From positions 46,662 to 110,661 of the forward strand of contig JAJZAD010000002.1 in assembly GCA_021799575.1 (NCBI GenBank): a stretch of 64,000 nucleotides of DNA. Direction: 5' to 3'. Positions 8,727-62,522 of this stretch are shown here, one piece after another. The stretch comes from a bacterium (GTDB lineage Bacteria > Patescibacteriota > Saccharimonadia > Saccharimonadales > UBA4665). The notes beneath the pieces were generated by a model that was given only the letters and a program-made list of their open reading frames with translations, had not been told where the DNA came from and did no database searches. Position 1 is the first letter of the stretch. Every line of letters begins with the position of its first letter. The translations under genes and the position numbers were made by a program.

Positions 8727-9457
8727 AAGGCCTCGATTCCGGGACTGAAAACCGCCTTCCCCCCGACTTCGATTTGGTAAACCTCAAATCCCGGCAGCGT
8801 GCTAATAAAGTTAACACCGCCTTTGCCCATGGCGAAAGCAGCCGTCGCAAAACGATCGGCCTCGAATATGTTCGGCCCGACAACCGTCAGACTGACAACT
8901 CCTCGTGGAGTCTCGTAATTATTAACCGGATTATAAATGTGATCGCCACGGATATATGGACCGCTAGTGGCTACGCCTAATCCTGAAACCTTAATCACTT
9001 TGACGATTTCATGAATATTGAAAGGGTTGCGGATACCGACCGCCCACGGCTCACGATTTTCGTTCAGCCCCTCGGCTTGTATATCCCCACCGGCTTCAAT
9101 GTAGAAGTCAGATAAACCTCTGGTCTTAAGCAGTTTAATCGCGTTATCGATAGCCCAACCTTTTACCAGCCCTGATGGATCGATGTAACCGTCCCGGTTA
9201 ATGTTAAAATATCCGCCGCTTACCTGTCTGGTCTCTTCGCACAGTTGCATGACCAATTTCATGTCTCCGGACCAGTCCTTAGGTTTTAGACCCTTATTAA
9301 CCAAACTCAACTCGCTGTCTTCCTTGTATGGACTAAACCGGAGGTCGACCTCACGAAAGTAGTTAAAAACGGCTTCTAACGGTTCGGGGTCGTTGGTCCC
9401 TACCGCCTCAATTGTAATCGGCATGCCCATAATGATGCGTGTCAGTTTTATAGTCAT
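8720..9457 (-). CDS. apbE: FAD:protein FMN transferase (ApbE family)
   Basis: A 245-residue ApbE protein, somewhat shorter than many family members. The motif DPSGLVKGWAID (family D-x-S-G-x-x-K-G) and the later IEAGGDIQAEG (family G-G-D-I) are both intact. The enzyme transfers FMN from FAD to a threonine of a target protein. Its obvious substrate is the SGAT-containing FMN-binding protein encoded 10 bp upstream. No clear signal peptide is visible, whereas ApbE usually acts outside the membrane, so its export needs checking. The gene overlaps the reductase gene by 7 bp. Confidence 0.92.
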   Translation of the reverse strand: MTIKLTRIIMGMPITIEAVGTNDPEPLEAVFNYFREVDLRFSPYKEDSELSLVNKGLKPKDWSGDMKLVMQLCEETRQVSGGYFNINRDGYIDPSGLVKGWAIDNAIKLLKTRGLSDFYIEAGGDIQAEGLNENREPWAVGIRNPFNIHEIVKVIKVSGLGVATSGPYIRGDHIYNPVNNYETPRGVVSLTVVGPNIFEADRFATAAFAMGKGGVNFISTLPGFEVYQIEVGGKAVFSPGIEALC

Positions 9458-9467
9458 TTTCTACAGC

Positions 9468-9980
9468 TTAAGCCTTACTTAGTGCACTTTGAAGAGACTG
9501 GATAAATGCCTCTGATGTGAATGTGGCTCCGGAGATAATTTGGACATTGGCATTTTGGGATTGAATCGTTTCCTGCTTTAGATAGGGTATTGCTTGCGAA
9601 TTAATATAGACCGAAGTAGGGTGCGTATTCGGATATTGGAGAAACTTAACATCGGTTATTCTCCCGCCGCTTATACTGACTGACACTTGAACGTTACCGT
9701 AATAGGCGTTAGCCGCGCTGCCCACGTAAGTACCATCCTGATAGGCTCCGTTCGAAGTCGAGGTTGAGGAACTACCACTACCGCCAGAAGAAGTAGAGCC
9801 ACTGTTCGATGATGATTGACTACTGTTATTTGCCGATCCGTTAGAGCCGGTGGCAATAGTTTTAGCCGGCACATTACTCAGTGATGACGGTTTGAGTATA
9901 ACCGGACGCTGGTGCCTGACCCCTAACGAGTAAACGGCATAGATGCCTAACACTCCTAATCCAAGTATTACTTTTTTCAC
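9468..9980 (-). CDS. Membrane-anchored FMN-binding domain protein (RnfG/NqrC-like)
   Basis: A 170-residue protein read from a GTG start. An N-terminal anchor (about 3-20) is followed by a Ser/Gly/Asn-rich spacer (42-77) and an FMN_bind domain. The flavinylation motif SGAT is at residues 150-153, followed by FTSEAF as in NqrC/RnfG. Thr153 is the expected attachment site. It should hold covalent FMN on the outer membrane face and receive electrons from the RnfD-like protein. It is the first gene of the three-gene module. A -10-like CAAAAT preceded by TG ends about 9 nt before the GTG, so the transcript may be nearly leaderless. Confidence 0.87.
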   Translation of the reverse strand: MKKVILGLGVLGIYAVYSLGVRHQRPVILKPSSLSNVPAKTIATGSNGSANNSSQSSSNSGSTSSGGSGSSSTSTSNGAYQDGTYVGSAANAYYGNVQVSVSISGGRITDVKFLQYPNTHPTSVYINSQAIPYLKQETIQSQNANVQIISGATFTSEAFIQSLQSALSKA

Positions 9981-44763: not shown

Positions 44764-47700
44764 CTAGTATCCGTTAACGATCATTTGCGTCAATGTCGCA
44801 GTATCTGATGTCCCTGCTGTTCCCCAAATCGGGAAAATGTAAAGGTTGTTGGCAATATTTGTTACTACAGTCGTAGTTGAGGTTGATGCTATAGGCAACA
44901 CAGCTAAGCTAGTAGTGTTTGATCCGGTAGTCTGGATGCTAAGCGTCCCTTCACCACTAATACTGGATGTAGAATAGCAAATAATATTGTAGTTAATCTG
45001 GAAATAGTAGTTGCTCGCCGATATGGTCGATGTCGATGGTGTTAATGTACCGATAAGGGTATCGCTACTTGCACTAGTTGCACTTGAACCATAATAAACA
45101 CCGAATTGCAGACTGTCTCCGTTAGAATCGGTACTATAGTAGCCATCACCGAGAATCTTAATAACTCTACCCGTCTGACAGTAATTAGCTGGAACGGCAG
45201 CCGCAGTGGAGAAAGCAGCACAATTGTTGGTACAGTTACTATCTGCAGATGAGGCTGAAGAGTTAGAGTAGAGTAACCCGTTGCAGGTTTCCCATGCACC
45301 GGCTACCCCGCAGCGGAAAGACCGGGTCGTAGCATTGTAGTACATACCTCCGTCTACTTCTGCCGGATCAGCGGAGGTTCCTGTTTCATTATCCAGCACC
45401 AGTATAGAAGGTGTATTTTCACCTGCAGACCCGGCCCCTATGTTAACTCTTAGGTTTGAAGTATCCACCGACAACACGTTGGTACCCAACGGTGTCTGTA
45501 CTTCCATGGCAGCCACCGAAGACGACGAAGGTATAACTAGCAGGTTACCGCTGTAACCTATACTATCGACTAGCGTGCCCGTTCCATTCAGTGCATCAAA
45601 TATATCCCCGGTACCGCCGCCATACGCCTGAAGCACTCCGGCTACTGAACCGCTAGTTGCCGCTTGAACATTGAAGTTAGCGGATTGAGTAACTGTTGAG
45701 TTGGCAATTACCGAAGAACTTGAGTATGCGGCAATCAAAGCAGCGGCAGTAACTGACGTGCCAGAATTGGACTGGGACGCTGTGGGTTGAACTTGGCTGC
45801 TGATAGAGTTATTGTAGGCGCCTATTCGGGTGGTTAGTGCACCTGCTTTATAGGTGAAACCGGTTGTCGTGCCGGCAGACGTGGTCGACGTGCCGGCAGC
45901 CTCACCAATGTAGAGGTCTTTTGTGCTCTGAGGGGTCAAACTAGGATAGGTAATAGTTGTACTGCTAGTGCTGTTATACAGCGTGCCGCTAGCATCGATC
46001 ACCCAAGACCCTGTAGTGCTACCGGTAGTAAACTCATATGCATCAAGTTCGTTAGTGCCGTTGGCTCCAGAAAGATTGACCGTAATCGTACTGGCCCCCG
46101 ATGCAGTTATCTGGCCGCGCCACATCGCAATACCCGACCCGCTAATCGTGCTAGTGATCTGTGACCACGCGCTTACCCCACCCCCTGACACACTGCTGAC
46201 ATTGTTGGATTTCTGAGGCGTAACGAAAAGTATCATGATGTCCCCAACATTCGCAGGAGACACGTTTAGGGTGAGAGTATTGCCATTACCACTACTTGTC
46301 CAGGAATTAACATAAGATATTGCCACACTTGTAACCTGGTTGGCGCAAGAAGAAAATACCAGTTGATTTGCATTACTAGGACTGCTGGCTAGACATTCTC
46401 CCGGAGCCGGATTAGTTGACGGCAGTGTGAGACTGTAAGATGCACCTATATTAGTTGGTGCCGCTATAGTAATAGCATTGCTGTTACCGCTATCATTAAA
46501 CACAAGTTGACCGCCTACAATATTAGAGGTACCCAGTATCAGACCATTATTAGAGTTAACTGCTACGATGTTATTGCCGTTACTGTTGCGTAAATCCAGA
46601 ATGTCTGCTGTGCCGCTGCTTGCAGCTTGTAGCACTCCGGCTACTGAACCGGAGGTGGCCGCCTGAACATTAAAGTTAGCCTCCTGGGTAGATGTTGAGT
46701 TTACAATCACAGAGGTTCCGGTATAACCGGCAATATCTGCTGCAATCGTATTGTAGTAGCCAGCTGTGCTTTGGGTGGCAGAGGGATAAGTCGGCGTGCC
46801 TCCGGTAACCGAAGCGTCATAGGCTAGTAAATGACCTGCTGTGGTTGAAATGTAAGTATAGCCTGTAGTCGTACCGGCTGTTGCGCTGTATTGGCTCCAG
46901 GCATAGCCAGTATATAATTCACTGGAGTTAGTCGGTGTCAGATCTGGATAATTGATTGTAGTCGAGGTAGTTGTGTTATAGTTAACTCCGCTGTTATCGA
47001 TAGCCCAGGTACTGTTCGCACTGTGCATAGTAAATTCTTCGATCGCAATTTCATTGGTACCCGGATTAGATGAGTAACTAACACTGACACTGCTGCTGCC
47101 TGTGGTGGTAACTACACCGCGCCACATCTCAATTGAGCCACCGTTGCTGCCGTTAGCGCCACTAGTTATTTTAGTCCAAGTATTGACACCACCACCGCTA
47201 ACACTACTTACTGACACATTATTAGTCTCGTGTGAGTAAAAGATCAGTAGATCGCCTACATTAGTCGGCGAGATGGTTAAGCTTGTCACATCGCTGCCAG
47301 ACGTATCCCATTCACCTACATAGGCAATCGAACCAGCCGACACTTGAGTGGCGCAAGATGTAAATATTAATTGGTTCGCATTGCTGGGGCTAGTACCAAG
47401 ACATAAGCCTGCCGTAGGGGTATTACTGGGGAGAGTCAAGGTGTAGCTGGCAGCTATCGAGGACGGCGCCGACAGACCGATGGCATTGGTGTCTGAACTG
47501 TCATAAAAGTTAATATCTCCGGCAATGTTATTGGCTGATCCTAAAGCCACCTGATTGGTAGACGTATTAACACTTAGTACGGTCTTGTTAGTATCGTTAT
47601 TAACTGTAAAAGCTCCTGCTTGATTGGTCGAGCTTTCAAAGGTAGCAATGCCATTATAACCAATCGTGGCCACATTGGTTCCATTACTGTTTCTAGCATC

Positions 47701-49899
47701 GAATATATCTGCGTTACCGCTGCCCGCAGCCTGCAGTATACCGGCAATTGAACCGCTATTTGCCGCCTGAACATAAAAATTAGCCTGCTGGACTGAGGTT
47801 GAATTATTAATCGCCGTACTGGTAACAAAAGCGGTCAATACTGCGCCAACAACATTAGATTCCCCGGAACTATTTTGGTTGGCGGTAGGCTGATAGGCGG
47901 TGTTTGCATTGGTCGAATCATCATAGGTAATAACATTATGCTGAATGCTGGTAATAATATAGTTAAAGCCGGAAGTAGTACCAGCCGTAGCAGGTGGATT
48001 TTGGACCTGCCCATAGCCGAAGTAAAGCTCATCACTGCTGATAGAGTTCAGGTTCGGGAAGGTAACCACCGTTGATGCAGAATTAATTTGAGAGCCGGTG
48101 CTATCCAACCCCCAGGTTGTCGAAGCATTAACTCCGGCAGCCGTAAATTCGGTAGCGGTAATTTCTTCCGATCCCGGTGACCCCGAATAAGTAACCGTTA
48201 TGGTTGAACTTCCTGTAGCTGTAACCGTACCAATCCACATCTCCACTCTATTTACTGTTCCGTTACCATTACTTACCACGGCTTTAGTCCAGGAGCTTAC
48301 TCCGCCGCCACTGATACTGCTAACTGTGACTCCGCTTGTGGGAATCTGTGTCGTAAGAATTATCTCATCTCCTACAGCTGACGGCGATATTGTTAGGCTA
48401 TTTGTTGCATTAGCATCCCATTCAGCCACTTCAGTTATGCTGGCGTTGGTATTCGAACAGCTGGCGAAGACCAGCTGCGAAGCCGAAGAGCTGCTGGTTT
48501 CGATACAGAGTCCAGGGTTGGGAGCCGAGCTGGGTAATGTCAAAGTATAATTAGCGTTAGCTACGGTTGAGTCAAGAGTTATCGTATTGGCATTAGTGTT
48601 ATTTTTAAAACCAAGCGATCCATTGATCGTGCTTGCCTGACCCAAAACAACTTGATTTGCACTGGTATCCACTGATACAACCTGGTCATTACTGCTGTTC
48701 TCAACAGCGAGGGCGGCAGATGTATTGTTGCTTGTTTGAATGATATCGCTAGGTGAAGTAGCGCTTCCGTTAATCGTGTTCTTAATGCCTTCTCCTTGAA
48801 GTACCAGCACCCCGGTCTGACTTGTGCTACCAACAGTTATTGTACCTGTGGTCGTGACAGTACCTATACTGTAAGTCGAAGCACCGACGCCATTAAGAGC
48901 AAAGTTGCCGGTACCTACACTGATGGATACACCGCTGGTTCCGGTCGTATTACCAATAGCTACACTGTTCGCATATTGGGTTCCGATGTCTACACTGCCA
49001 TTGGTTCCAGTGCCATTAGCCTGACCGGCATCAATTACCACATTGCCTCCGTTGCCGTTGGTACCACCGCCGCTGCCACCGCTAAGGTTAAGGTTTCCTC
49101 CTGCCAATGCGGACGATCCGCTACCAGCAGCTCCGGCGATAATATTGATTGACACGCCTGCACTAGACGCTGCTGCCGTCTCAACCGATAAATTATGAGT
49201 TGTGGTATTGTTGCCGAAAGTTATGTCACCGTTATTAGCTAAAATAAGCGCATCGGTCCCAGCTGATTGTAATTCTGCCAGATCACCGCTACCGGTCTTG
49301 TTTATAAAGATACTGGCGTTAGTCGATGCATCCGTTTGTACCCCTTGCCCCAACTGTACAAATTGAGAACTACTCATACCGTTTAACTGTCCGGCATTGA
49401 AGGCATAGGGACTGGAGGTTAGAGGTTGCATCGGTATCATCTCTCCATCTGGATTACAGGCGCTGAAAGTTGAGCAAGTTGTCGACGTGCCGGCAATGTT
49501 CATCGATAACCATAACGTACTTTGGTTCCAGTCAATACTGGTTCCAAAAGGAGTTATAGAACCCAATTGAACCGAAAAGAAGCCGTTAACTACTTCTACT
49601 CCTTGATTGTTGTAATTCAGATAATCTTCGGTCCAGAGTAAAGTGCCAGCCGGTGACCCTGTAGTATCACCGACACTTTGTCCGTTGCCGTTTTCGTAAA
49701 TCTTAAATTCAACATTGTAATAACCGTCAGGCACAATCGCTCCCTGAGCGTTCAATAGTCTACCTTGGAATTCTATAGTCTGATTAATTCCTGTTGCTGC
49801 ATAGGCTCTAGATTGGTTAAACAATACCAAAGATACTACTGACAGCACTGCAACCGTCAGCAATAAGCCGAAGAATTTTGTCTTTGTTCCCAAAACCAT
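44764..49899 (-). CDS. Giant secreted repeat protein, 1711 residues
   Basis: An N-terminal signal or anchor (about 9-33) is followed by a domain starting TIEFQGRLLNAQGAIVPDGYY that occurs in many bacterial surface proteins. A Gly/Ser/Asn/Thr-rich beta region (about 190-420) comes next, then three large repeats of about 330-360 residues, and a C-terminal domain introduced by MYYNATTRSFRCGVAGAWETC, resembling tail-fibre or head ends. Each repeat has SLTISP-NVGD, SVSGGGV-WTK, EMWRG, and NFNVQAATSGSVAGVLQA elements. It is probably an adhesin or outer stalk. It heads no visible enzyme function. It is followed downstream, tail to tail, by the gene at 44209. Confidence 0.8.
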   Translation of the reverse strand: MVLGTKTKFFGLLLTVAVLSVVSLVLFNQSRAYAATGINQTIEFQGRLLNAQGAIVPDGYYNVEFKIYENGNGQSVGDTTGSPAGTLLWTEDYLNYNNQGVEVVNGFFSVQLGSITPFGTSIDWNQSTLWLSMNIAGTSTTCSTFSACNPDGEMIPMQPLTSSPYAFNAGQLNGMSSSQFVQLGQGVQTDASTNASIFINKTGSGDLAELQSAGTDALILANNGDITFGNNTTTHNLSVETAAASSAGVSINIIAGAAGSGSSALAGGNLNLSGGSGGGTNGNGGNVVIDAGQANGTGTNGSVDIGTQYANSVAIGNTTGTSGVSISVGTGNFALNGVGASTYSIGTVTTTGTITVGSTSQTGVLVLQGEGIKNTINGSATSPSDIIQTSNNTSAALAVENSSNDQVVSVDTSANQVVLGQASTINGSLGFKNNTNANTITLDSTVANANYTLTLPSSAPNPGLCIETSSSSASQLVFASCSNTNASITEVAEWDANATNSLTISPSAVGDEIILTTQIPTSGVTVSSISGGGVSSWTKAVVSNGNGTVNRVEMWIGTVTATGSSTITVTYSGSPGSEEITATEFTAAGVNASTTWGLDSTGSQINSASTVVTFPNLNSISSDELYFGYGQVQNPPATAGTTSGFNYIITSIQHNVITYDDSTNANTAYQPTANQNSSGESNVVGAVLTAFVTSTAINNSTSVQQANFYVQAANSGSIAGILQAAGSGNADIFDARNSNGTNVATIGYNGIATFESSTNQAGAFTVNNDTNKTVLSVNTSTNQVALGSANNIAGDINFYDSSDTNAIGLSAPSSIAASYTLTLPSNTPTAGLCLGTSPSNANQLIFTSCATQVSAGSIAYVGEWDTSGSDVTSLTISPTNVGDLLIFYSHETNNVSVSSVSGGGVNTWTKITSGANGSNGGSIEMWRGVVTTTGSSSVSVSYSSNPGTNEIAIEEFTMHSANSTWAIDNSGVNYNTTTSTTINYPDLTPTNSSELYTGYAWSQYSATAGTTTGYTYISTTAGHLLAYDASVTGGTPTYPSATQSTAGYYNTIAADIAGYTGTSVIVNSTSTQEANFNVQAATSGSVAGVLQAASSGTADILDLRNSNGNNIVAVNSNNGLILGTSNIVGGQLVFNDSGNSNAITIAAPTNIGASYSLTLPSTNPAPGECLASSPSNANQLVFSSCANQVTSVAISYVNSWTSSGNGNTLTLNVSPANVGDIMILFVTPQKSNNVSSVSGGGVSAWSQITSTISGSGIAMWRGQITASGASTITVNLSGANGTNELDAYEFTTGSTTGSWVIDASGTLYNSTSSTTITYPSLTPQSTKDLYIGEAAGTSTTSAGTTTGFTYKAGALTTRIGAYNNSISSQVQPTASQSNSGTSVTAAALIAAYSSSSVIANSTVTQSANFNVQAATSGSVAGVLQAYGGGTGDIFDALNGTGTLVDSIGYSGNLLVIPSSSSVAAMEVQTPLGTNVLSVDTSNLRVNIGAGSAGENTPSILVLDNETGTSADPAEVDGGMYYNATTRSFRCGVAGAWETCNGLLYSNSSASSADSNCTNNCAAFSTAAAVPANYCQTGRVIKILGDGYYSTDSNGDSLQFGVYYGSSATSASSDTLIGTLTPSTSTISASNYYFQINYNIICYSTSSISGEGTLSIQTTGSNTTSLAVLPIASTSTTTVVTNIANNLYIFPIWGTAGTSDTATLTQMIVNGY
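45545..48615 (-). repeat. Three tandem coding repeats of about 1 kb in the giant surface gene
   Basis: Approximate units: 48610-47640, 47510-46560 and 46505-45545 (minus strand). They share aligned protein blocks and visibly similar DNA, for example the stretch around 45640, 46630 and 47750 encoding the SGSVAGVLQA element. The copies have diverged clearly, so the duplication is not recent. Confidence 0.75.
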
Positions 49900-50017: not shown

Positions 50018-51010
50018 TTAGTGATTGGTGTGGACTGAAGTACCGAGAGTGGGAACGGGTTTTAGTTTGTCCGCCAGAACGTGCTTTTCGCGTTTTTCTC
50101 CCAACCAAAAGCTAACTACAAGTGTCGCCGCTATAGCATACAGGGGCCATAACACCAAAAACTTATTGGCTGAAGGCCCGCTGGAAGTATTGGACGAACC
50201 GGCTACACTACCTGCCTGGCCGTTAATAATTGCTGCCACATTTAAGAATGCTAATCTGTTCTGAGAGTCGCTGGCCTGGATGGATATCTTATAAATTCCA
50301 GCCGACTTATATACGTGATCGGCGTTAACGGTCTGGTTAATGCTTGATGGTATAACCTGGTTGCTGTTATCTCCCCAATTAACGTTGACTGCAAAGGGTG
50401 CCACGCCGCCTAGAATCTTAATCGGAACGTAAAGTTCCTGACCTGGAAAGGTACCCCGGTAAACAGCGCTGGTTTCAAGTAGCAGCTGGGTAGCGGTAAA
50501 GTTAATGTTCAAAAGAGAAGACACCGGGGGTGTTTGGACGTTATAGGTAACATTAACGGCCTTAGAAGTCGGTCCGGCTTCATTTAAGTCATTGTAATCA
50601 ACAGCCGTCAGCGAATTTTGCCCGTAAAGTAAATCGACTTGCACCGAAAAGCCACCATTATTATTGCACGGGGTCGAACCGGCAAATATGTCATTCTTAT
50701 AGATTTCGACCAGAGTTCCAGAAGGACATGTACCGCTGACAGTTATAGGGGTATTTTGAAACGTTGCCGAATCGGTCGGATAGGTAATACTCGCCCCGGT
50801 AGATGGCGGGGGACCCGGCATCTCACCGGTCAAACTGATTGAAGAAGACTGGGGCCCGGGACTTGCAGAGGCGAAACTTGATACCGTAAGCACAGCCAAA
50901 AACGCGCCTACCAGCAATACTAATACAGCCAGGGCCAAATAAGAGGTGTGTTCGTGCGGGCGAATCCGCCCGCTATGATTACGGCTGTTTAATCTTACCT
51001 TTGCAGGCAT
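50018..51010 (-). CDS. Surface protein with Ig-like and PKD-like domains and a C-terminal membrane anchor
   Basis: A 330-residue protein: a cytoplasmic basic start, a membrane helix (about 24-48), an Ig-like domain beginning ITYPTDSATFQNTPITVSG with two Cys, a PKD-like domain (VNWGDNSNQVIPS ... HVYKSAGIYKISIQASDSQ), and a C-terminal helix (about 288-306) with a basic tail. Both ends should lie inside with the two domains outside. It may bind glycan or partner proteins of the same locus. It is followed by the giant repeat gene and preceded by the DUF916-like gene. Confidence 0.72.
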   Translation of the reverse strand: MPAKVRLNSRNHSGRIRPHEHTSYLALAVLVLLVGAFLAVLTVSSFASASPGPQSSSISLTGEMPGPPPSTGASITYPTDSATFQNTPITVSGTCPSGTLVEIYKNDIFAGSTPCNNNGGFSVQVDLLYGQNSLTAVDYNDLNEAGPTSKAVNVTYNVQTPPVSSLLNINFTATQLLLETSAVYRGTFPGQELYVPIKILGGVAPFAVNVNWGDNSNQVIPSSINQTVNADHVYKSAGIYKISIQASDSQNRLAFLNVAAIINGQAGSVAGSSNTSSGPSANKFLVLWPLYAIAATLVVSFWLGEKREKHVLADKLKPVPTLGTSVHTNH

Positions 51011-51033: not shown

Positions 51034-52059
51034 TTATTTTTTGGTACGGCTGGATTTTTGGGCTTTGTCTAGTATATGTTGATTATACCGCTTGATGAGA
51101 TGCCGGATCAAGAAAAAGCCGCCAATTAGCACTACGATCCAGATTAATATTAAATTGATTGGAATAACCCAAAAAGACAAGCTGGCACTCAACTCCTTTG
51201 TGGGAGAGCCGTAAGAAACGTTGTAGGTAGCGGTATAACGCCCGAAGAACCGTTTGTTACCGACATCAACTTTATTAATTGTTTCGGTGAACTTACGCAT
51301 ACTTCCGGGTAATACGTTTCCCAGCCCTTGATTAATGTTTAAATGCAGCACCGTGTGCCCAAACATATCTTTAAGTGTCAATAGGCCGGTTGGAACAACG
51401 TGCTCATTGCCGCTATTAGCAATAACTTCGGAAAAGACAAAAGGATCGTTTTGAAAAAACCCGCTATTTCCGTTACCGTTAGCTGAAACCGTAAAAGAAT
51501 GGTTTTGCAGGTTCTCGACTATATGACCGTTAACCGTAAGCAGAACCAGAGCACCCAGGCTGGCAGATAATGCCACACCGCTGGCGGTGCCGCTAAGTGT
51601 AGCTGGAGTGCCGGTAAAGCGAATAACACCGTAATGACCGCCCGGTGAGGCGTTTTGCGGGATGTTAATATCTACATTTAAGGTTTTAAGCTGATTGGGT
51701 TTCAGGGCGAAACTGGGAATAGCAGCTATATAACCGGTTAAGGAATACGGGTCATTAGTGTTGTTATTGATTAATATTTTCGGAACGCCGGTTTCACCGT
51801 TGGCAACAAAGTCGTTTATCTGATTTGTGACGATAACCGGACCGCTAGAGATGTTGCGGATTTCAATCTGGCTAGTAATTGTCTGACCAGGATTACCCCT
51901 TAACTCAATCAGGGGGGGATCAATTTCGAGCGCCTGTCCCGGCATTGCGGTTGCCGGCGCATTATTTATGTTGGCACCGAAAACGAGGTTGGGAACAAAC
52001 TGAACCCATACTAAGGCTATTGCTATGCCGAGCAGTAATAGTTTTTTAGTTTTACTCAT
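51034..52059 (-). CDS. DUF916-like protein (WxL-interacting type), anchored
   Basis: A 341-residue protein: signal (about 8-28), PPLIELRGNPGQTITSQIEI and NASPGGHYGVIRF in the first Ig-like domain, a second domain ending with LSFWVIPINLIL, and a C-terminal membrane helix (about 296-318) with a basic tail. This layout matches the DUF916/WxL-protein-binding family of Gram-positive surface clusters. It probably holds secreted partners at the cell surface. It sits directly before the three paralogous secreted proteins in the operon order, 18 bp from the nearest. Confidence 0.65.
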   Translation of the reverse strand: MSKTKKLLLLGIAIALVWVQFVPNLVFGANINNAPATAMPGQALEIDPPLIELRGNPGQTITSQIEIRNISSGPVIVTNQINDFVANGETGVPKILINNNTNDPYSLTGYIAAIPSFALKPNQLKTLNVDINIPQNASPGGHYGVIRFTGTPATLSGTASGVALSASLGALVLLTVNGHIVENLQNHSFTVSANGNGNSGFFQNDPFVFSEVIANSGNEHVVPTGLLTLKDMFGHTVLHLNINQGLGNVLPGSMRKFTETINKVDVGNKRFFGRYTATYNVSYGSPTKELSASLSFWVIPINLILIWIVVLIGGFFLIRHLIKRYNQHILDKAQKSSRTKK

Positions 52060-52077: not shown

Positions 52078-53238
52078 TTAAAACGTAGCCGTACAAATAT
52101 ACGTCAGCGTAGTGGTATATGTTCCGGGAGCTTGTTTTCCGTCCACGTTTACAATATATGATACCGTATAAATCTGCGCATCGGTAGCATTGCCGCTGCT
52201 TCCGCCGTTGGTACTGTCCGCAACGACGTTACCGCTGTTAAATTCAAACGAATTAGCGGTATTATATCCAGTTTCCGGATAACCGAAATAGCTCACACCA
52301 TCAGACGCCGGGGTCAATGCCGTTCCAACCGCCGGGGTAGTATTGACGACCAGGTTCATGCCGAATTGCGAAGTGCCGATTTTTGACGTAGTTGACGTCG
52401 ACATCGCCGCAATTTGGTTGGATCCGTTAGTTAACGTACTGCCGTTAACGGTTATGACATAACCGTGGTTGGCGTTGGTCGAAGCCGCCATTTGCGAAGT
52501 CGTATAAGCTGTTGCTGTGGGTGAAAACAGCATCGGAAAACTAACATTTCCCGAAGTAGCCGTCGAGCAGTTAGGTACCCCGCTGGTTTCACTGACGGTC
52601 GCACCGGTACAAAAAACTAGTGATTCAGGCATGGTACCGGTTAGGACTATCGGGTTTGCGGTTGAGGCGGCCACGTTGCCTGAATCTACCAGATTAGTGC
52701 CCGGGGTTGATTGTACCCAAGTAGTAATAGTTACATAAAAGGTGGTGTTTGCAGCAGTTGGGTTGACTATACCGACGAACTGAACCGATAAGGGTGTATT
52801 GGCAGCCGGTGTGTAGGCGGTAGAGGAGGAAATGTATAACGTCCCGTTCGTAGTGTTGTTAATCGTAGTAAACGTGCTTAAAGCCGAGGAATTAGTTCCC
52901 TCAGTTGCACTGGTGGTAACAAGACCCGTAGGTACGTTGCCGGTTGAACACGCATCAGCCGTATCCAAAGTTGCACAGTATTGGAACTCAATTGATTGGA
53001 TAGCGGTACTTGTAGGAACCGTAAAATCAAACAGGTGGTCGACGGTACCGCCAGGATCAGAGCCTCCTACCGGTGTTGTAGCAGAAGGATCTGTTTGAAG
53101 GGTTAAGCTTCTTTGTGTTATTTGGGCTGCATGTACGACAGGTTGCATGTATACAAATAGGGGTGTTAATGCCACTCCTAGAAATCCGATTACAACTGCC
53201 AGGTACAGCCTCCTAAGGATTCTCCGCCTCGGAAACAT
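52078..53238 (-). CDS. Secreted surface protein, paralogue 1 (TLTYICT-ending family)
   Basis: A 386-residue protein with a signal peptide (about 10-37). It begins RSLTLQTDPSATTPVGGS after the signal and ends GTYTTTLTYICTATF. The C-terminal 190 residues (QFGMNLV, YFGYPETGYNT, QIYTVSYIVNV) recur in the two neighbours. No enzyme motif; four Cys include the final one in the YICT motif. By position next to a DUF916-like gene it may play the part that WxL proteins play elsewhere, but the WxL motif itself is absent. Confidence 0.72.
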   Translation of the reverse strand: MFPRRRILRRLYLAVVIGFLGVALTPLFVYMQPVVHAAQITQRSLTLQTDPSATTPVGGSDPGGTVDHLFDFTVPTSTAIQSIEFQYCATLDTADACSTGNVPTGLVTTSATEGTNSSALSTFTTINNTTNGTLYISSSTAYTPAANTPLSVQFVGIVNPTAANTTFYVTITTWVQSTPGTNLVDSGNVAASTANPIVLTGTMPESLVFCTGATVSETSGVPNCSTATSGNVSFPMLFSPTATAYTTSQMAASTNANHGYVITVNGSTLTNGSNQIAAMSTSTTSKIGTSQFGMNLVVNTTPAVGTALTPASDGVSYFGYPETGYNTANSFEFNSGNVVADSTNGGSSGNATDAQIYTVSYIVNVDGKQAPGTYTTTLTYICTATF

Positions 53239-53292: not shown

Positions 53293-54495
53293 TTAAAACG
53301 TTGGGGTGCAGATATAGGTTAAAGTGGTAGTGTAAGTACCGGCAGGCGTTAGTCCTTGGACGTTAGCAATGTATGTAGAAGTATATATTTGCGCGTCGGT
53401 GCCAACCGTTGTACCGCTCGGATAACCGCTGGTTGCGACTACGGTTGTTGTATTGGCTGCAAAAGCATAGGTGTCGGGCGTTGCATAATTAGATGCCGGA
53501 AGAGCGAAGTAGCTTGTTCCATCGGATGCCGGCGTTATGGCAGTGCCACAGTTATATGTAGTACCACAACCGGAATTGGTAGCAGTCGTATTTGCTACCA
53601 GGTTCATCCCGAATTGGTCTGTTCCTTTGACTGGAGCTGCCGCCGTTGCGCCTATAGCGGTTATTTTATTGCTTCCACTGGTTAAAGTAGGTCCTAATAC
53701 GGTTATCTGGTACCCGCTGGTGGCATTGGTTGAAGCGGCCATTTGAGAGGTCGCCACAGAAGTATAGTTCGGCGAAAACAACTGCTGAAAACTAACCGCG
53801 CCGGAAGTAGCGGTCGTACAATCCGGAACACCACTGGTTTCACTAACCGTGCCGCCGGTACAAAAGACCAGCGACTCGGGCATTTGTCCACTTAATACGA
53901 TCGGATTAGCGACCGCTGCGGCCACGTTGCCGGAATCAACATTAGTCCCGCCCTCGTTGGTCAATGTCCATGTAGTAATCCGTACGTAAAATGACAGGTT
54001 CTGATTGGGAGCGGTCGGATTAGGATTCACTACCCCCACCAATTGAACTGTAAGCGGGCTTGATCCAGGAGTTACCGCAGTACTGCAGTTTAATATGGGA
54101 TCAAGCTGGGTGGTCGCACTTACGGTGCAGGAGCTTAATGACGATGAAGTTGCCGAGCCCGGAGTAGTCGATACGCCGGTGGTACTCATACTGTAATCGG
54201 TATTTAAATTACCGCAGGTACTGTCCGCCTGTTCACAGTACTGAAAACCAATAGATTCAATTGCTGTACTTTGATCCGCTGAAGGTACGGTAAAAGTAAA
54301 CAAATCGTCAACTGTACCGCCTGGAGTTGAACCGCCGACAACGGTTGTAGCACCTGGATCAGCTTGCAGGGTCAGGCTTCTCGGCTCGAGTACGCCGACA
54401 GCATATGTGTGCTTAGGCAGAATAAAAGATGTTAGAACCGTAAGCATAAGCACAGCACCTGCGAGGTACAATATTCTCTTCAGATTTATAACCAT
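53293..54495 (-). CDS. Secreted surface protein, paralogue 2 (TLTYICT-ending family)
   Basis: A 400-residue paralogue of the protein at 52078-53238. Shared blocks: RSLTLQADPGATT at the start of the mature part, GGTVDDLFTFTVPS, MPESLVFCTGGTVSETSGVP, QFGMNLV, AQIYTSTYIANV and GTYTTTLTYICTPTF at the end. The signal peptide is at about 7-32. The two are clearly duplicates that have diverged. Function unknown; probably assembled on the surface with its neighbours. Confidence 0.72.
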   Translation of the reverse strand: MVINLKRILYLAGAVLMLTVLTSFILPKHTYAVGVLEPRSLTLQADPGATTVVGGSTPGGTVDDLFTFTVPSADQSTAIESIGFQYCEQADSTCGNLNTDYSMSTTGVSTTPGSATSSSLSSCTVSATTQLDPILNCSTAVTPGSSPLTVQLVGVVNPNPTAPNQNLSFYVRITTWTLTNEGGTNVDSGNVAAAVANPIVLSGQMPESLVFCTGGTVSETSGVPDCTTATSGAVSFQQLFSPNYTSVATSQMAASTNATSGYQITVLGPTLTSGSNKITAIGATAAAPVKGTDQFGMNLVANTTATNSGCGTTYNCGTAITPASDGTSYFALPASNYATPDTYAFAANTTTVVATSGYPSGTTVGTDAQIYTSTYIANVQGLTPAGTYTTTLTYICTPTF

Positions 54496-54596: not shown

Positions 54597-55343
54597 TTAA
54601 TAAGTACCCGTACAGACGATGTTTTGGGTTGAAACGTATTGTCCCCCAGGGGTCAAATTAGACACGTCAACGATATAGCTGATCGTATAAATCGTTTCAC
54701 CGGAACTTTTCGGGGCGTAAGCGATTTCATCGCCGTTATCGAAACGAAAGCTATTCGGCGTGTTATAGTTGGTGGCCACGTCACCGGTGCCGAATTGCCC
54801 GAAATTAGGGTTTGCACCGAAATTAGTAGGGTCAGTATTGGCAACCAGGTTTAATCCGTACTGTTCCTGTCCTACCGTCGGCGAGGCATTGGTGCTCAGA
54901 GGTGTAATCTGGTGGCCATAAGCATTAGTAGGCGGCGATCCGAAAATCTGAACTACATAGCCGTAACTGGTATAGTCAATAACTGCAAACTGTGAAGTGG
55001 CCGTCGATGTAGAAGTGGGGGAAAAGCTGCCGAAACTCGGATTGGCGCTTAAAATCGCGAATGACAGTGCCGGAGCACCCGTGGTCTCGTGTCCGGCTTT
55101 GACCTGATAATTAGTACCGACTGAAGTCCCGACCCCTATAATCGCTCCGGACTCTTGAGCTTTGTAGTTGGCCGACTGAGTGTTAATTGAACCGTTTCCA
55201 CCTATAGAGGTTTCAATCAGTTGATAACCGCTAGACTTGCTTGTGACCGCCGATACAGAAACATAGCCAGCCGCCGACAAGGTCCAAATCAGGGCAAATA
55301 CCAAATAAAGACTATTTTGCAGCTTTCTTCCCAACACGGTCAT
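54597..55343 (-). CDS. Secreted surface protein, shorter paralogue (C-terminal domain only)
   Basis: A 248-residue protein with a signal peptide (about 9-33). It lacks the first domain of the two larger paralogues but keeps the C-terminal one: YGLNLVANTDP, NYNTPNSFRFDNGDE, TIYTISYIVDVSNLTPGGQYVS and a final IVCTGTY. It is the first gene of the minus-strand surface run and has its own promoter. Confidence 0.68.
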   Translation of the reverse strand: MTVLGRKLQNSLYLVFALIWTLSAAGYVSVSAVTSKSSGYQLIETSIGGNGSINTQSANYKAQESGAIIGVGTSVGTNYQVKAGHETTGAPALSFAILSANPSFGSFSPTSTSTATSQFAVIDYTSYGYVVQIFGSPPTNAYGHQITPLSTNASPTVGQEQYGLNLVANTDPTNFGANPNFGQFGTGDVATNYNTPNSFRFDNGDEIAYAPKSSGETIYTISYIVDVSNLTPGGQYVSTQNIVCTGTY

Positions 55344-55401: not shown

Positions 55402-56463
55402 GTGGCGAACGCACAGGAAACGGATGATGACAAGTCGTCAGATAACTCTTTAGAGGGTCAAACGCTTAAACCCCGAGAGGATAACAAGCAGGTTGAAACT
55501 AAAGACAAAGAGACGACTCATGTAACTCATACCCCAATTAGCGATGAAAAACACAGGCGTTTTGCTTTCAGGCCAAGCCATAAGGCAGTGTTTATTGGCC
55601 TGGCGATAGTGGTTATGATTCTCGGCGTTAATGCTGGAATCCTGGCGTTTTTACTTAAAAAAGAAAGTATCAATTCAAAAGCTATCAATGACAAGGGTGT
55701 ATCGATCAGTCCTGGAACCTTGAGCAAACTCGGGGTTAACGATTCTCAGATCGGATCAAGCAACGAAAAGTTAGTCGTTAACCCTAACGCTCAATTCAAC
55801 TCACAGCTGACCGTGGCAGGCGGCGTAAAGATAGGGGGGCAGTTGATTCTTAACTCGACGCTCAATGCCTCAAACGCTAATCTAAGCCAGCTGCAAGCAG
55901 GTAGTACTTCAATTAATTCTCTTAACGTCAATGGCAGCGCTACGGCTTCCACACTAAGCGTCAGAGGTAATTTTGCAGTTAACGGTAGTGCCCAATTTCA
56001 AAACGGAGTAACGGTGGCTCAGCTGCTGAGCGTAGACAACAACGCAGCTGTATCCGGTAATCTTTCGATTGGAGGCGATTTAAGTTCGAATGCGGTGGCA
56101 GCCGGGCAGTTGGTAGTGTCAGGACCCATCCAGATCGGTAGCCATGTCATTACTGCCGGGCGTACTCCTGGGGTACAGATCGCGAGTGGGGCGATCGGAT
56201 CAAACGGAACGGTAAGTATTAGCGGCAATGATGAAGCCGGAACAATAGTTATAAACACTGGCGCCGGATCAGGCAAGGGTCCGATTGTCAGCGTCTTATT
56301 TAATGCCGGTTATTCTACTCAACCGGTGGTGATCATTACTCCTTTGGGTGGTTTCGCCGAATTCTATCTTGGCAATGTCACTACTGCCGGCTTTACCGTA
56401 GATTCCGCCAGCGGACTGGTGTCGGGTATCTCTTATCAGATTAATTACATCGTCGAGCAGTAA
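55402..56463 (+). CDS. Anchored surface protein with beta-helix-like repeats
   Basis: A 353-residue protein read from GTG with AAGGA 10 nt upstream. A charged cytoplasmic part (1-55), one membrane helix (about 62-86), then a stretch of short repeats (about 130-240) with alternating hydrophobic and Asn/Ser/Gly positions such as INSLNVNGSATASTLSV and NLSIGGDLSSNAV, as in beta-helical stalks. A compact C-terminal domain follows (about 275-353, VSVLFNAGYSTQPVVIITP). It is divergent from the surface operon and convergent with the ATPase operon. Probably a surface stalk; partner unknown. Confidence 0.72.
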   Translation: MANAQETDDDKSSDNSLEGQTLKPREDNKQVETKDKETTHVTHTPISDEKHRRFAFRPSHKAVFIGLAIVVMILGVNAGILAFLLKKESINSKAINDKGVSISPGTLSKLGVNDSQIGSSNEKLVVNPNAQFNSQLTVAGGVKIGGQLILNSTLNASNANLSQLQAGSTSINSLNVNGSATASTLSVRGNFAVNGSAQFQNGVTVAQLLSVDNNAAVSGNLSIGGDLSSNAVAAGQLVVSGPIQIGSHVITAGRTPGVQIASGAIGSNGTVSISGNDEAGTIVINTGAGSGKGPIVSVLFNAGYSTQPVVIITPLGGFAEFYLGNVTTAGFTVDSASGLVSGISYQINYIVEQ

Positions 56464-56512: not shown

Positions 56513-56770
56513 TTAAATATTTAAAAACAGCAGTACCGTATCATCTTTAACGGTAATAATACCGTTTGACACTTTAATATTAATCTCTTCTTTTTCGGTT
56601 TGAATAATAACTTCACTGTCTGGATCAATAATCGAGAAAAAATCGGCGTGTCCCGGCAGAATATCGAACTTACCGACTTTGTTGGTGGCGGTGACAGTAT
56701 AGGCATTGCCGACGTAATAAACCTCAAACGGTGCTCTGGCCTGGACTGTTAATAATTTAGCTTCGGACAT
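56513..56770 (-). CDS. atpC: F1 ATPase epsilon subunit, beta-sandwich domain only
   Basis: An 85-residue protein matching the N-terminal beta-sandwich of epsilon: ARAPFEVYYVGNA, FDILPGHADFFSII, IKVSNGIITVKDDTVLLFL. The usual protein has about 130-140 residues; the C-terminal helical hairpin that inhibits ATP hydrolysis is missing. It is last in the operon, 12 bp after atpD. Loss of the helices would remove one type of control on hydrolysis. Confidence 0.85.
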   Translation of the reverse strand: MSEAKLLTVQARAPFEVYYVGNAYTVTATNKVGKFDILPGHADFFSIIDPDSEVIIQTEKEEINIKVSNGIITVKDDTVLLFLNI

Positions 56771-56782
56771 AATTAACTGTTT

Positions 56783-59051
<2,269 letters not shown>

Positions 59052-59052
59052 T

Positions 59053-60531
59053 TCAAGCCTCCCGTCCTTTATTTGAAGAACTATCTTTTACGCGTTGGTC
59101 AATAGTCTCAGTTTGCGGTTTAGGCGAGAATTTCTTAAGTAGTTCAGCTTCCAATTTATCGAAATCCTTATCCTCTCTGACTTTCTTTGCCGCTTCCCGG
59201 CTTGCCTGTTTTAAGGCTTTAACGTCAATGTCAACTTGAGCATCTCCTAAGAGAATAGTTTCAAGAAAGAGCTGCTGTTCGACCAAACTGTAAAGTTCTT
59301 CTGGAGCCTGCGCCAACCCCTGCATAAGTTGGCTGCCAAGCTTTAGGTCTTTTGTAGCTTCCTTAGACAGACTGGAACCGAAATGAGCAAACTCTTCCGC
59401 CTCATGATAAGCGGCAATCTTTTGGAACAAGATTCCGGACAAACGTTTCTGGCGGGCGGTTTGGGCCTGACCGCCAACCCGGGAAACCGATAGACCGGTA
59501 TTCACAGCCGGTCTCTGCCCTTGCCGAAAAATATTCAAATCAAAGACTATCTGACCGTCGGTGATAGACATAATAGAGGTAGAAAGATATGAGGTAATGT
59601 CGTTGTTCGGTGTGACGACCACCGGCAGAGCAGTTAGTGTCTTCCCGCCGTTTTTAAGTTTTCCGGCCCTCTCTAATAATGAGCTGTGAGCGTAAAACAT
59701 GTCTCCCGGATAGGAGTCTCGACCAGGGTCAACCTCCTGAATAAGTGACAATTGACGGTAAGCCTCCGCGTGGCTGGTGAGATCATCGTAGATAATGATC
59801 ACGTCTCGGCCGGCGTACCACAGGCTTTCGGCAATTGCACAAGCGGAATATGGCGCCATATATGAGAGAGTCAATGAGTCAAACACATCCGCAATTACAA
59901 CTACGGTATGATCCATTGAACCCGACTCTTCTAGTCCGGTCAATAAGGCTTCAACGTCTACTTTACGCTTGCCGATCATAGCATATACCACTATCCGGTC
60001 GGTGCCCGACTGATTGGCCGTAAGCTGAGTCAAAAATGTACTTTTACCGGATTTGGAATCACCAAGGATAGCAATACGCTGCCCAAGAACTACGGCAAAA
60101 TTTAAATCAACCGCCGGTACTCCTGACGCTAGTTGCTGGTTAAGCTGCGAACGGTCCATAATACCGGGAGCTGAGTTAAAGATTCCCGAACTTTGTTTAG
60201 CTTTAAGTGACCCTTTACCATCAACGGGATTTCCCATCGGATCAACTATTCGTCCAATAAGTTCTTTGCCGACGGGGATTTGTAATAGGTCGTTTTCCAC
60301 CACTGCAAGTGTTCCAGGAAGAATCTTCTCCGAATTTACATTAAACAAAATAGCCCTATCAGCATAAGCTTCCCTGACTAAACCCCTCTGTCCGTCCTCA
60401 AATAATACTTGGGCGCCTAGACGCACTCCCTCCAGACCTTTAACTTCTATGATAAAGCCGTTGGTCGATTTAACCTCTCCGGTTAAGTGGTCAGCTTCAA
60501 CTAGTTTTTGGAACTTGCGGTTGTCAAACAC
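59053..60531 (-). CDS. atpA: F1 ATPase alpha subunit, divergent
   Basis: A 492-residue protein. The nucleotide loop reads GDSKSGKST (157-165) where alpha subunits nearly always have GDRQTGKT. IYDDLTSHAEAYRQLSL, SYPGDMFYAHSSLLERA and the arginine-finger segment SVSRVGGQAQ are present. The N-terminal region that normally contacts delta is shortened. A charged C-terminal tail (KFSPKPQTETIDQR) is extra. The gene overlaps atpH by 8 bp. Confidence 0.92.
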   Translation of the reverse strand: MFDNRKFQKLVEADHLTGEVKSTNGFIIEVKGLEGVRLGAQVLFEDGQRGLVREAYADRAILFNVNSEKILPGTLAVVENDLLQIPVGKELIGRIVDPMGNPVDGKGSLKAKQSSGIFNSAPGIMDRSQLNQQLASGVPAVDLNFAVVLGQRIAILGDSKSGKSTFLTQLTANQSGTDRIVVYAMIGKRKVDVEALLTGLEESGSMDHTVVVIADVFDSLTLSYMAPYSACAIAESLWYAGRDVIIIYDDLTSHAEAYRQLSLIQEVDPGRDSYPGDMFYAHSSLLERAGKLKNGGKTLTALPVVVTPNNDITSYLSTSIMSITDGQIVFDLNIFRQGQRPAVNTGLSVSRVGGQAQTARQKRLSGILFQKIAAYHEAEEFAHFGSSLSKEATKDLKLGSQLMQGLAQAPEELYSLVEQQLFLETILLGDAQVDIDVKALKQASREAAKKVREDKDFDKLEAELLKKFSPKPQTETIDQRVKDSSSNKGREA

Positions 60532-61009
60532 TACGCATCGCCTCCGCGAACTTTGATTTGTTTTCCAAAATCATCCGTCTCCAAGACCAATCGTAAATGT
60601 GGCTACCGCTAACTACGACCATACCGCCAAGAAGAGTCGGGCTAAAACGAAAATCGATCAGTACTTCGTTGCCAAGGTGATTCCGACACCAATGCACAAT
60701 ATCTCGTTTCAACTTTAGGGGCGGTATATCTGCCAAAATCAACCTTAACTGAAGAGAGTTTTTTAAATAGTCGTTCAGCTGGATTACTAAATGTTCGACG
60801 TCATCTGCGGTCGGCGCTTGACCGTTTAGGAAGTTGTCTAAGACAAACGAAGCTGCCGGAGCAAGTTTAGTGTCTATCGGTACATGTTTATCGGTAACGC
60901 GTTTTTTTATGCTTACGCTTCTTAATTGCTTGGCGTAGTCGTTTAGCTGTTCAATAACCGATTTAACATCAGATGGAGAGATGATGTCGTCACTTAGTTT
61001 AAGTTTCAT
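60524..61009 (-). CDS. atpH: F1 ATPase delta subunit
   Basis: A 161-residue protein with the two-part delta pattern: a helical N-terminal half and a C-terminal half with the family's VVVSGSHIYDWSWRRMI region, equivalent to GxxIxxGDxxxDxSxxxxL. Delta links the b stalk to the top of alpha. The assignment rests on this motif and on the place between atpF and atpA. It overlaps both neighbours. Confidence 0.82.
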   Translation of the reverse strand: MKLKLSDDIISPSDVKSVIEQLNDYAKQLRSVSIKKRVTDKHVPIDTKLAPAASFVLDNFLNGQAPTADDVEHLVIQLNDYLKNSLQLRLILADIPPLKLKRDIVHWCRNHLGNEVLIDFRFSPTLLGGMVVVSGSHIYDWSWRRMILENKSKFAEAMRSV

Positions 61010-61604
61010 TTTTGACCGCCTGTTTTAGCTCGTCCTTATGTCCTTCAAGCTGAGATAACAAGTAGTCCTCTTGACTACCAAGATCGACTTCGTGTTGTAG
61101 AACTTCGGTCAGGAAGGATATTACGGCACTGGACAAGCGTTCGTCAATTAGATCGATGCGTTGTTGTTTTTCTTGTGCTATGTCTTCTGCCAATTTAGCT
61201 TTCAAATCGTTTTTTAACTGCTCGGTTTCAGTTCTGCCGCGAACCAGTTCATTAATCGCCTGCTGTTCATACTGCTTAAACATCTCCGTGAGTTTAGAGT
61301 TTTCTCGGGCCGTGATTTCCGATATCTCTTTTGCAATAGTTCCGGTTACCTGGTCTGTGGTAGTTTTCAGCTCTTGTTCGAATTGATCTACCGAGCGATT
61401 AATCACATGCTGGAATTTTTCCTCCGCCTCGGCGACTAATTTCTGCCTTCGCTCTGGATTTAGCGATAAACCATTATTTGGCTTAGGTTTGGCTTGATTT
61501 TTTTTATCGTCAAAATGCGCCCTAGCATGACGATAAACCAGGCTAACTAAAACCCCGATTATAAATACGTCTATGTATAGGAATATTTGCAATAAAAGAT
61601 TCAT
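60999..61604 (-). CDS. atpF: F-type ATPase b subunit
   Basis: A 201-residue protein: one N-terminal membrane helix (about 3-25), then a long charged coiled coil, as in b subunits. It is the only obvious membrane part of the standard stator encoded here. It overlaps atpH by 11 bp and follows the exported protein gene by 7 bp. Confidence 0.8.
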   Translation of the reverse strand: MNLLLQIFLYIDVFIIGVLVSLVYRHARAHFDDKKNQAKPKPNNGLSLNPERRQKLVAEAEEKFQHVINRSVDQFEQELKTTTDQVTGTIAKEISEITARENSKLTEMFKQYEQQAINELVRGRTETEQLKNDLKAKLAEDIAQEKQQRIDLIDERLSSAVISFLTEVLQHEVDLGSQEDYLLSQLEGHKDELKQAVKNET

Positions 61605-61611
61605 CCCACGC

Positions 61612-62469
61612 CTAACTTACCCTAGTTAATATCATGAATATGGCAAATAGTGCAACTATGATTATGCCTACCACCAATGCTGACATCTGAAGTACGTTAC
61701 GGTAAACGGCAGATTGGGCCATGGGATTACGTCCAACCGATATGATGCTTCCATGAACCATTGAATAAACTATACTGACCACTGCTATTAGGGTGATGAT
61801 GAATATTACGGCACTGATAATGATTGGCAAGGTCTTAACCTGCTTGCCGGCAACCGCATTGGCTAAGTTCTGCAATGCGGAGGGAATAAGGGTCTTATCC
61901 GGTTGTTTAGTGTAATAACTGACACTGACGAGCACCGGAATAGAACCTATATCCGCGCTTTGGTTGCCACTGGATGTTTTAATGCTGACTTTTTTAGCTG
62001 AGACGTTGGGAAATGCGGCCTGCGCAACACCGATAACTTCACTGTTGTCTGAGGCTAACATACCTACTCCGGCAATCGGGGAAGGAGTTATTTCATCTCC
62101 GGCTGTTATTTTACCGTTAAGATCAGTCACTAAAACCGAATTAACTCCGCTAGTAGCAACTTCTACCTGGTTGCTGCCACTGGATAACGATACCTGAGCG
62201 TTGTTGTTGGCTATGATTACGCCGATTAAGGATTTGGCGTTACTTAGATTTGCAGGCTCGACTGTATTTAATTCGCCAGGCTTAATACTGACCAGGGAGC
62301 CGATGTTCAAATTCTGCCCAGTGGCATCGTATCCTTGAGTGATAACCGAATCGGCCGTTACTCCCGCGCTCGCAGTAAAAACAGTGACAGCGGCTAAGCT
62401 AATAAGCAAACCCCGTAGGCCGCCGATAATCTGCCGTCTTTTAAGAGTAACTTTTTCGTTTATAGGCAT
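61612..62469 (-). CDS. Exported protein with a c-like C-terminal helix hairpin, in the place of ATPase subunits a and c
   Basis: A 285-residue protein, first gene of the ATPase operon. A signal/anchor (about 16-38) leads to a beta-rich external domain (about 40-205) with NGKITAGDEITPSPIAGVGM. Two membrane helices (about 214-236 and 259-282) are joined by a loop with SVGRNPMAQSA (244-254). The loop resembles the cytoplasmic R-x-P loop of ATPase c subunits, and with an exported N-domain the hairpin has the c topology. No Asp or Glu occurs in either helix; counting from the loop Pro, the ion-binding position holds Val267. It cannot be a normal proton-carrying c. No a subunit is encoded here. Confidence 0.7.
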   Translation of the reverse strand: MPINEKVTLKRRQIIGGLRGLLISLAAVTVFTASAGVTADSVITQGYDATGQNLNIGSLVSIKPGELNTVEPANLSNAKSLIGVIIANNNAQVSLSSGSNQVEVATSGVNSVLVTDLNGKITAGDEITPSPIAGVGMLASDNSEVIGVAQAAFPNVSAKKVSIKTSSGNQSADIGSIPVLVSVSYYTKQPDKTLIPSALQNLANAVAGKQVKTLPIIISAVIFIITLIAVVSIVYSMVHGSIISVGRNPMAQSAVYRNVLQMSALVVGIIIVALFAIFMILTRVS

Positions 62470-62494: not shown

Positions 62495-62522
62495 ATTATA
62501 CAAGTAAAAACTCTTATGTTAA
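62495..62522 (-). promoter_or_regulatory. Promoter of the ATPase operon
   Basis: Minus strand TTAACA (62517-62522), 16-bp spacer, TATAAT (62495-62500) preceded by TTG. The expected leader is about 19 nt, with only a weak GGA before the ATG at 62469. Confidence 0.7.

Follow-up and report, generated by a model that had tools for sequence, protein, structure and literature searches.

The window, by which we mean the whole stretch of 64,000 nucleotides that was analysed, encodes an F1-like ATPase, here called F1X, together with a membrane protein, cX, whose C-terminal hairpin descends from subunit c of F-type ATP synthases and has lost the ion-binding carboxylate. The F1X operon has intact F1 motifs, encodes no subunit a and is linked to genes for surface proteins. 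We propose, with a probability of about 0.6, that the F1-like ATPase drives this acid-less, c-derived protein as a rotor, the outer domains of which act on structures of the cell surface.

cX is an acid-less descendant of subunit c

The cX gene (61612..62469, minus strand, as are all parts of cX given below) starts with ATG and encodes 285 amino acids. In the AlphaFold2 model (single chain, 38-row alignment, mean pLDDT 85.9), an N-terminal signal/anchor helix (residues 6-33; 62371..62454) is followed by an external beta domain that resembles phage capsid cement (decoration) proteins (residues 43-186; 61912..62343; model and Foldseek) and by a c-like helical hairpin (residues 213-284; 61618..61833; model, Foldseek and profile search). 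The hairpin consists of helices 213-247 and 249-284, which are joined at the cytosolic loop GRNP (residues 246-249; 61723..61734). An initial sequence-only reading had proposed a signal/anchor, a beta-rich external domain of about 165 residues and a two-helix hairpin with GRNP, and both the open reading frame and the model bear this out, with an external stretch of about 165 residues between anchor and hairpin. It had also claimed that both helices lack Asp and Glu and that Val267 (61669..61671) occupies the counted carboxylate site. Indeed, neither Asp nor Glu occurs anywhere from residue 213 onwards, and Val267 lies at Pro249+18, a carboxylate site of F-type c; canonical c subunits of related genomes carry their acid at Pro+16 to Pro+18 in 21/21 cases.

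The loss of the carboxylate is family-wide. The R-x-P loop is present in each of the 91 relatives whose C-terminus is intact, and Asp or Glu is found at Pro+13 to Pro+28 in none of them, compared to a carboxylate in 34/34 canonical c subunits (21 taken from the alignment and 13 from loci, two sets that may overlap). In a set of 72 diverse relatives, the Arg and Pro of the loop are likewise invariant, which speaks against a chance occurrence. Directly after the loop Pro, 88 of the 91 cX relatives carry Leu or Met and all canonical subunits (34/34) carry Glu, a difference that may prevent the two motors within a cell from swapping parts.

When a profile built from 72 hairpins was run against 177,635 PDB sequences, it gave 23 matches at E ≤ 10, all of which were F-type c subunits that align along the length of the hairpin (best E 3.3e-5). 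The commonest matches among the same 72 hairpins, albeit weak ones, were NCBIfam subunit C models (21 members, best 6e-6). Placed on Chloroflexus c (9itt_I), the modelled hairpin reached a target TM of 0.86 (1.4 Å over 67 columns), with a Foldseek E-value of only 0.5 at a probability of 0.99, a partial match. Four relatives in the same operon position exceeded the Pfam ATP-synt_C cut-off of 24 with 27.7-32.2 bits; the window cX had no match to this model, and full-length cX had no match to a Pfam, NCBIfam or PHROG family. The Gly-rich packing motif that c has in TM1 is missing from the window cX; it is kept in L254, L256, L257, L261 and a 2,592-residue form (genome G067), and the Gly-rich relatives that pass the ATP-synt_C cut-off are still without the acid. 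Comparing hairpins with Saccharibacteria c in hhalign covered 22 columns only, and in a control with ten columns masked around the loop the sequence signal to canonical c was gone. Therefore, the case for homology of the window protein itself is built on the loop together with the predicted fold and the intermediates. Taken as a member of the F-type c family, cX has the hairpin with its R-x-P loop and sequence homology that runs mainly through this loop. We conclude that the cX hairpin is a real subunit c descendant. Structure prediction of the monomer and the profile search, which the sequence-only reading had suggested as checks, both placed the hairpin with F-type c and not with an unrelated family, and the loop whose conservation it had asked to be checked is kept by every relative with an intact C-terminus.

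Compared to F-type subunit c (PF00137), cX shares the hairpin, the R-x-P loop, the predicted topology and the company of F1 genes. It differs by having no carboxylate, usually no Gly-rich TM1 and no subunit a as partner, by its N-terminal signal and large external domain, and by Leu or Met in place of Glu after the loop Pro.

The hairpin is constant across relatives and the part outside is variable. The external domain of the window cX showed modest similarity to its best Foldseek match, 8hdt_G (E 5.4e-5, query TM 0.30, target TM 0.48), and this phage-cement-like domain recurs within giant CPR surface proteins. In other relatives the hairpin is fused to Ig-like domains (L254 and L257, with a weak invasin/Ig-like match in L256) or NHL beta-propellers (L255 and L262), and in G067 it closes an open frame of 2,592 residues at the C-terminal end. 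A hairpin that stays constant while its outside part is swapped would be expected of a motor interface. On contig C8 of G067 (L260, L298), ABC/FtsX-type transporter genes precede the F1X operon, and the 2,592-residue hairpin frame lies about 10 kb away.

The F1X operon

The operon consists of seven minus-strand genes, with cX first, followed by bX, dX, alphaX, gammaX, betaX and epsX, which overlap or are spaced by 1-12 bp. A promoter-like sequence (TTAACA-16-TATAAT, 11/12, minus strand, 62495..62522) lies 26 bp upstream of cX; it is a consensus match only, and total hits to this consensus were not above those in shuffles. bX (60999..61604, 201 aa) is a b-like peripheral stalk protein at a conserved operon position, with one N-terminal TM helix followed by a coiled coil, and its homologs have one TM helix in 32/36 cases. 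dX (60524..61009, 161 aa) is delta/OSCP-like (Pfam OSCP E 0.001, below cut-off; NF004406 E 9.8e-5). The F1-like alphaX (59053..60531; Pfam ATP-synt_ab E 1.3e-62) contains the arginine-finger motif SVSRVG, and the F1-like catalytic betaX (56783..58198) contains the Walker A motif GGAGVGKT and the catalytic Glu in GVGERIREG. gammaX (58191..59051; Pfam ATP-synt E 2.1e-26), the F1-like rotor shaft, matches PDB gamma chains over residues 14-273, and epsX (56513..56770, 85 aa; Pfam ATP-synt_DE_N E 1.6e-11) comprises the epsilon beta-sandwich only, without the C-terminal helices. With alpha, beta, gamma, epsilon and the catalytic motifs all found, F1X belongs to the F1-ATPases. Among relatives, Walker A was present in 50/50 betaX proteins, the catalytic Glu motif in all 50 with a wider search, and alphaX carried the arginine-finger motif SV[ST]R. 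Because the catalytic motifs are intact, F1X should, judging by its sequence, be catalytically competent and hydrolyse ATP.

No subunit a was found in the F1X operon by Pfam. The sole subunit a and the sole PF00137 subunit c of the source genome belong to the canonical F-ATPase operon on another contig. Twenty-six F1X-positive genomes had no subunit a at E ≤ 0.1, and the phylum search listed only one gamma for each, of the F1X type; several of these genomes are single-contig or at least 99% complete. Some Patescibacteria genes listed as ATP synthase may thus not encode proton pumps. These 26 genomes, the operon without a and the absence of the acid in all relatives strengthen the earlier claim that cX does not move ions. 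In a tree of beta subunits, one fully supported branch parts F1X from canonical beta; the tree has no outgroup, and neither side is proven to be a clade.

The source genome encodes a second F1X-type gamma on contig C15, where a second F1X operon without cX is located (L152, G000:C15:29000-48000). Like F1X, N-ATPases (alternate F1F0) represent a second F-type operon within one genome. N-ATPases retain an ion-binding c and subunit a, and the alt_F1F0 models for alpha, beta, gamma and epsilon all scored below cut-off against F1X.

Linkage of cX to F1X and to surface genes

The F1X operon is widespread in Patescibacteria. Among 61 relatives, cX was found in 48 and gammaX in 50 (46 with both, 2 with cX only, 4 with gammaX only, 9 with neither), and among 380 Patescibacteria the corresponding numbers were 55, 1, 8 and 316; co-occurrence P-values ignore that these genomes are related and overstate independence. 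When the eight genomes with gammaX and no cX were inspected, six carried cX in the operon, one operon was at a contig end and one genome (G023) was truly without it. In the single reverse exception (G333), the F1X operon is truncated. G023 and a further genome outside the 380 sample (G033), both near-complete, have an F1X operon without detectable cX or PamR (L153 and L154). In 56/67 F1X operons, cX precedes alphaX on the same strand. A contig scan with a narrow alignment recovered 73 cX loci, nearly all from Saccharibacteria MAGs and a few from other CPR (Woesebacteria, Kaiserbacteria).

Downstream of the F1X operon in the window, on the same minus strand, lies a cluster of genes for the Pam pilus, a recently named system, and for a further surface protein. 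It comprises a PamT/pilin C domain protein (54597..55343; NF058579 238.2 bits, cut-off 240; NF058581 141.6 bits, cut-off 55), two Pam pilus system pilins (53293..54495 and 52078..53238; NF058581 108.8 and 149.6 bits, cut-off 55), a WxLIP peptidoglycan-binding-like surface protein with a C-terminal TM helix (51034..52059; PF06030 E 1.9e-5, just below cut-off) and the RbmA-like protein PamR (50018..51010; NF058578 327.3 bits, cut-off 300). Hence PamR and pilin C are above cut-off, and PamT is 1.8 bits below. PamR, pilins and PamT-like genes of the CPR Pam pilus (NF058578, NF058579, NF058581) are neighbours of cX; cX and F1X are not among the named Pam components, and none of their genes matched a Pam model in NCBIfam. 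NF058580, considered as a further Pam model, was rejected as an unrelated lipase. Between F1X and the Pam cluster, a plus-strand gene (55402..56463) adjoining the operon encodes a single-TM fibre-like protein with a cytosolic N-terminus and a beta-helix-like stem. In its low-confidence model (pLDDT 69), the tip shows weak likeness to the H-lectin/pyocin knob, and phage tailspikes were also weakly matched. A 1,711-residue repetitive surface protein (44764-49899, minus strand) adjoins the Pam cluster; it had no PHROG match and no Pfam match in 44764-46500, its C-terminal third.

The linkage extends beyond the window. PamR was found in 42/61 relatives, all 42 of which have cX, and in 0/13 without cX; it is missing in 6 of the 48 cX-bearing relatives. 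In most Saccharibacteria loci, the fibre-like gene adjoins cX or the F1X operon. Where cX is split from F1X, it often adjoins a Pam cluster (L032, L039, L040, L042, L043, L047, L048, L051), and other extra cX copies are located beside giant surface protein genes. One of the split copies is a paralog in the source genome, on contig C14 (L032), next to a second Pam cluster. Judged by gene length, the split-off loci had been candidates for type IV pilus operons, which was rejected when their sequences proved to be infB/rpsA plus surface genes, the latter being recognised as the Pam cluster. F1X is also accompanied by Pam-like and WxLIP-like genes in the intermediate group and in family f104. No text on the F1X-cX operon or on Pam pili was found in the open literature; part of the link between cX and Pam may already be published.

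Proposed mechanism and alternatives

In the mechanism that we propose, ATP hydrolysis in alpha3beta3 would turn gammaX-epsX, and several cX hairpins would bind the foot of gamma and epsilon through their GRNP loops, as the c subunits of ATP synthase do through theirs. The b/delta stalk would hold the F1X head while the hairpins shift within the membrane and translocate no ions, and the external domains would pass this motion to surface structures, here most likely the adjacently encoded Pam pilus and fibre proteins. From the sequence-only reading, in which cX forms a rotor or anchor ring that passes F1 movement rather than ions to the outside, the non-ion part has been strengthened. We infer that cX forms a ring and transfers the torque of a rotating F1 to the outside, which agrees with the way the genes are linked and with external domains that can be exchanged; direct contact with the pilus is likewise our inference. 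A more specific version, a dedicated rotary machine of Patescibacteria in which a proton-inert ring derived from c is spun by the F1 head and its outward domains turn or ratchet an extracellular pilus or giant adhesin, we put forward tentatively, at somewhat less than even odds.

A TM pair unrelated to c that has GRNP by coincidence would agree with the masking control, in which the signal to canonical c disappeared. Against it stand the PDB matches, exclusively to F-type c, the transitional relatives that pass the ATP-synt_C cut-off from the same operon position, and the fixed position of cX beside F1 genes, and we rejected this reading as scarcely credible. Nearly as improbable, and likewise rejected, is F1X as a cryptic ion pump that uses a non-standard site or borrows a and c from the canonical Fo. 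In its favour, a canonical F-ATPase is also found in most Saccharibacteria examined, but the missing TM2 acid (0/91), the 26 F1X genomes without a and the wholly different residue after the loop Pro strongly disfavour it.

It is less easy to set aside a motor without a rotating ring, in which cX would be a membrane anchor or lever and hydrolysis by F1X would push or reset an attached external protein, as proposed for mycoplasma X0/MIB-MIP. A tight c-type ring is not assured, because TM1 lacks the Gly-rich packing motif; capsid cement proteins, which the external fold resembles, are often trimeric, so that a small oligomer is possible. We nevertheless consider a lever unlikely, as the family descends from a ring-forming c and keeps the Gly-rich TM1 in some members, and as gamma, epsilon, b and delta, the parts of a rotary mechanism, are all kept. 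Still somewhat less likely is that F1X and cX energise the export or assembly of Pam pilins and giant adhesins and do not move the finished structures, in the manner of the FliI/SctN-type ATPases of secretion. F1X operons adjoin genes for pilins, WxLIP-like and giant surface proteins across classes, and the flanking genes that were examined included no recognisable ATPase dedicated to Pam assembly. However, the surface proteins inspected by eye have ordinary signal peptides or TM anchors, the operon encodes no translocase-like channel, and an export ATPase needs no b/delta stalk.

In concept, the closest known systems to the proposed rotor are the F1-like X0 ATPases of mycoplasmas, which are also extra F1-like ATPases tied to surface proteins: Type 3 (MIB-MIP) is needed for the handling of antibodies at the surface, and Type 2 (G1-ATPase) is linked to gliding (PMC12994834, PMC3369863). 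X0 protein 5 has a signal peptide, a large region outside the cell and, at its C-terminus, two TM helices connected by a short loop (PMC12994834, PMC3369863); this layout, very similar to that of cX, favours the lever. No homology of X0 proteins to c has been reported. The mycoplasma clusters encode a 12-TM protein (protein 1) and no b/delta homologs, whereas the F1X operon contains b and delta and no such 12-TM gene. alphaX and betaX scored far below the cut-offs of the MSC_0618/0619 and MMOB1660/1670 models (NF045934, 383 of 570 bits; NF045936, 254 of 520 bits), and F1X is therefore outside mycoplasma X0 at the family level. Our results also suggest a hypothesis, based on homology, for the two-helix protein of these ATPases, which has lacked an explanation.

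The cX family provides sequence evidence that a subunit c without its ion site was reused as a mechanical part of the membrane, with intermediates preserved, and F1X-cX is a concrete candidate for powering the surface structures of ultra-small epibionts. If the rotary reading is true, the work of ATP synthase was redirected in evolution to yield an ATP-driven rotary motor at the cell surface.

Two further features of the window were observed. In a leucyl-tRNA synthetase (28926-31814, minus strand), the editing domain is followed by an inserted NUDIX domain (residues 383-500, E 4.5e-12). An NqrB/RnfD-NAD-binding fusion, an ApbE-like protein (recognised by eye) and an FMN-binding protein are encoded in a row at 7191-9980 (minus strand), a minimal flavin electron-transfer module.
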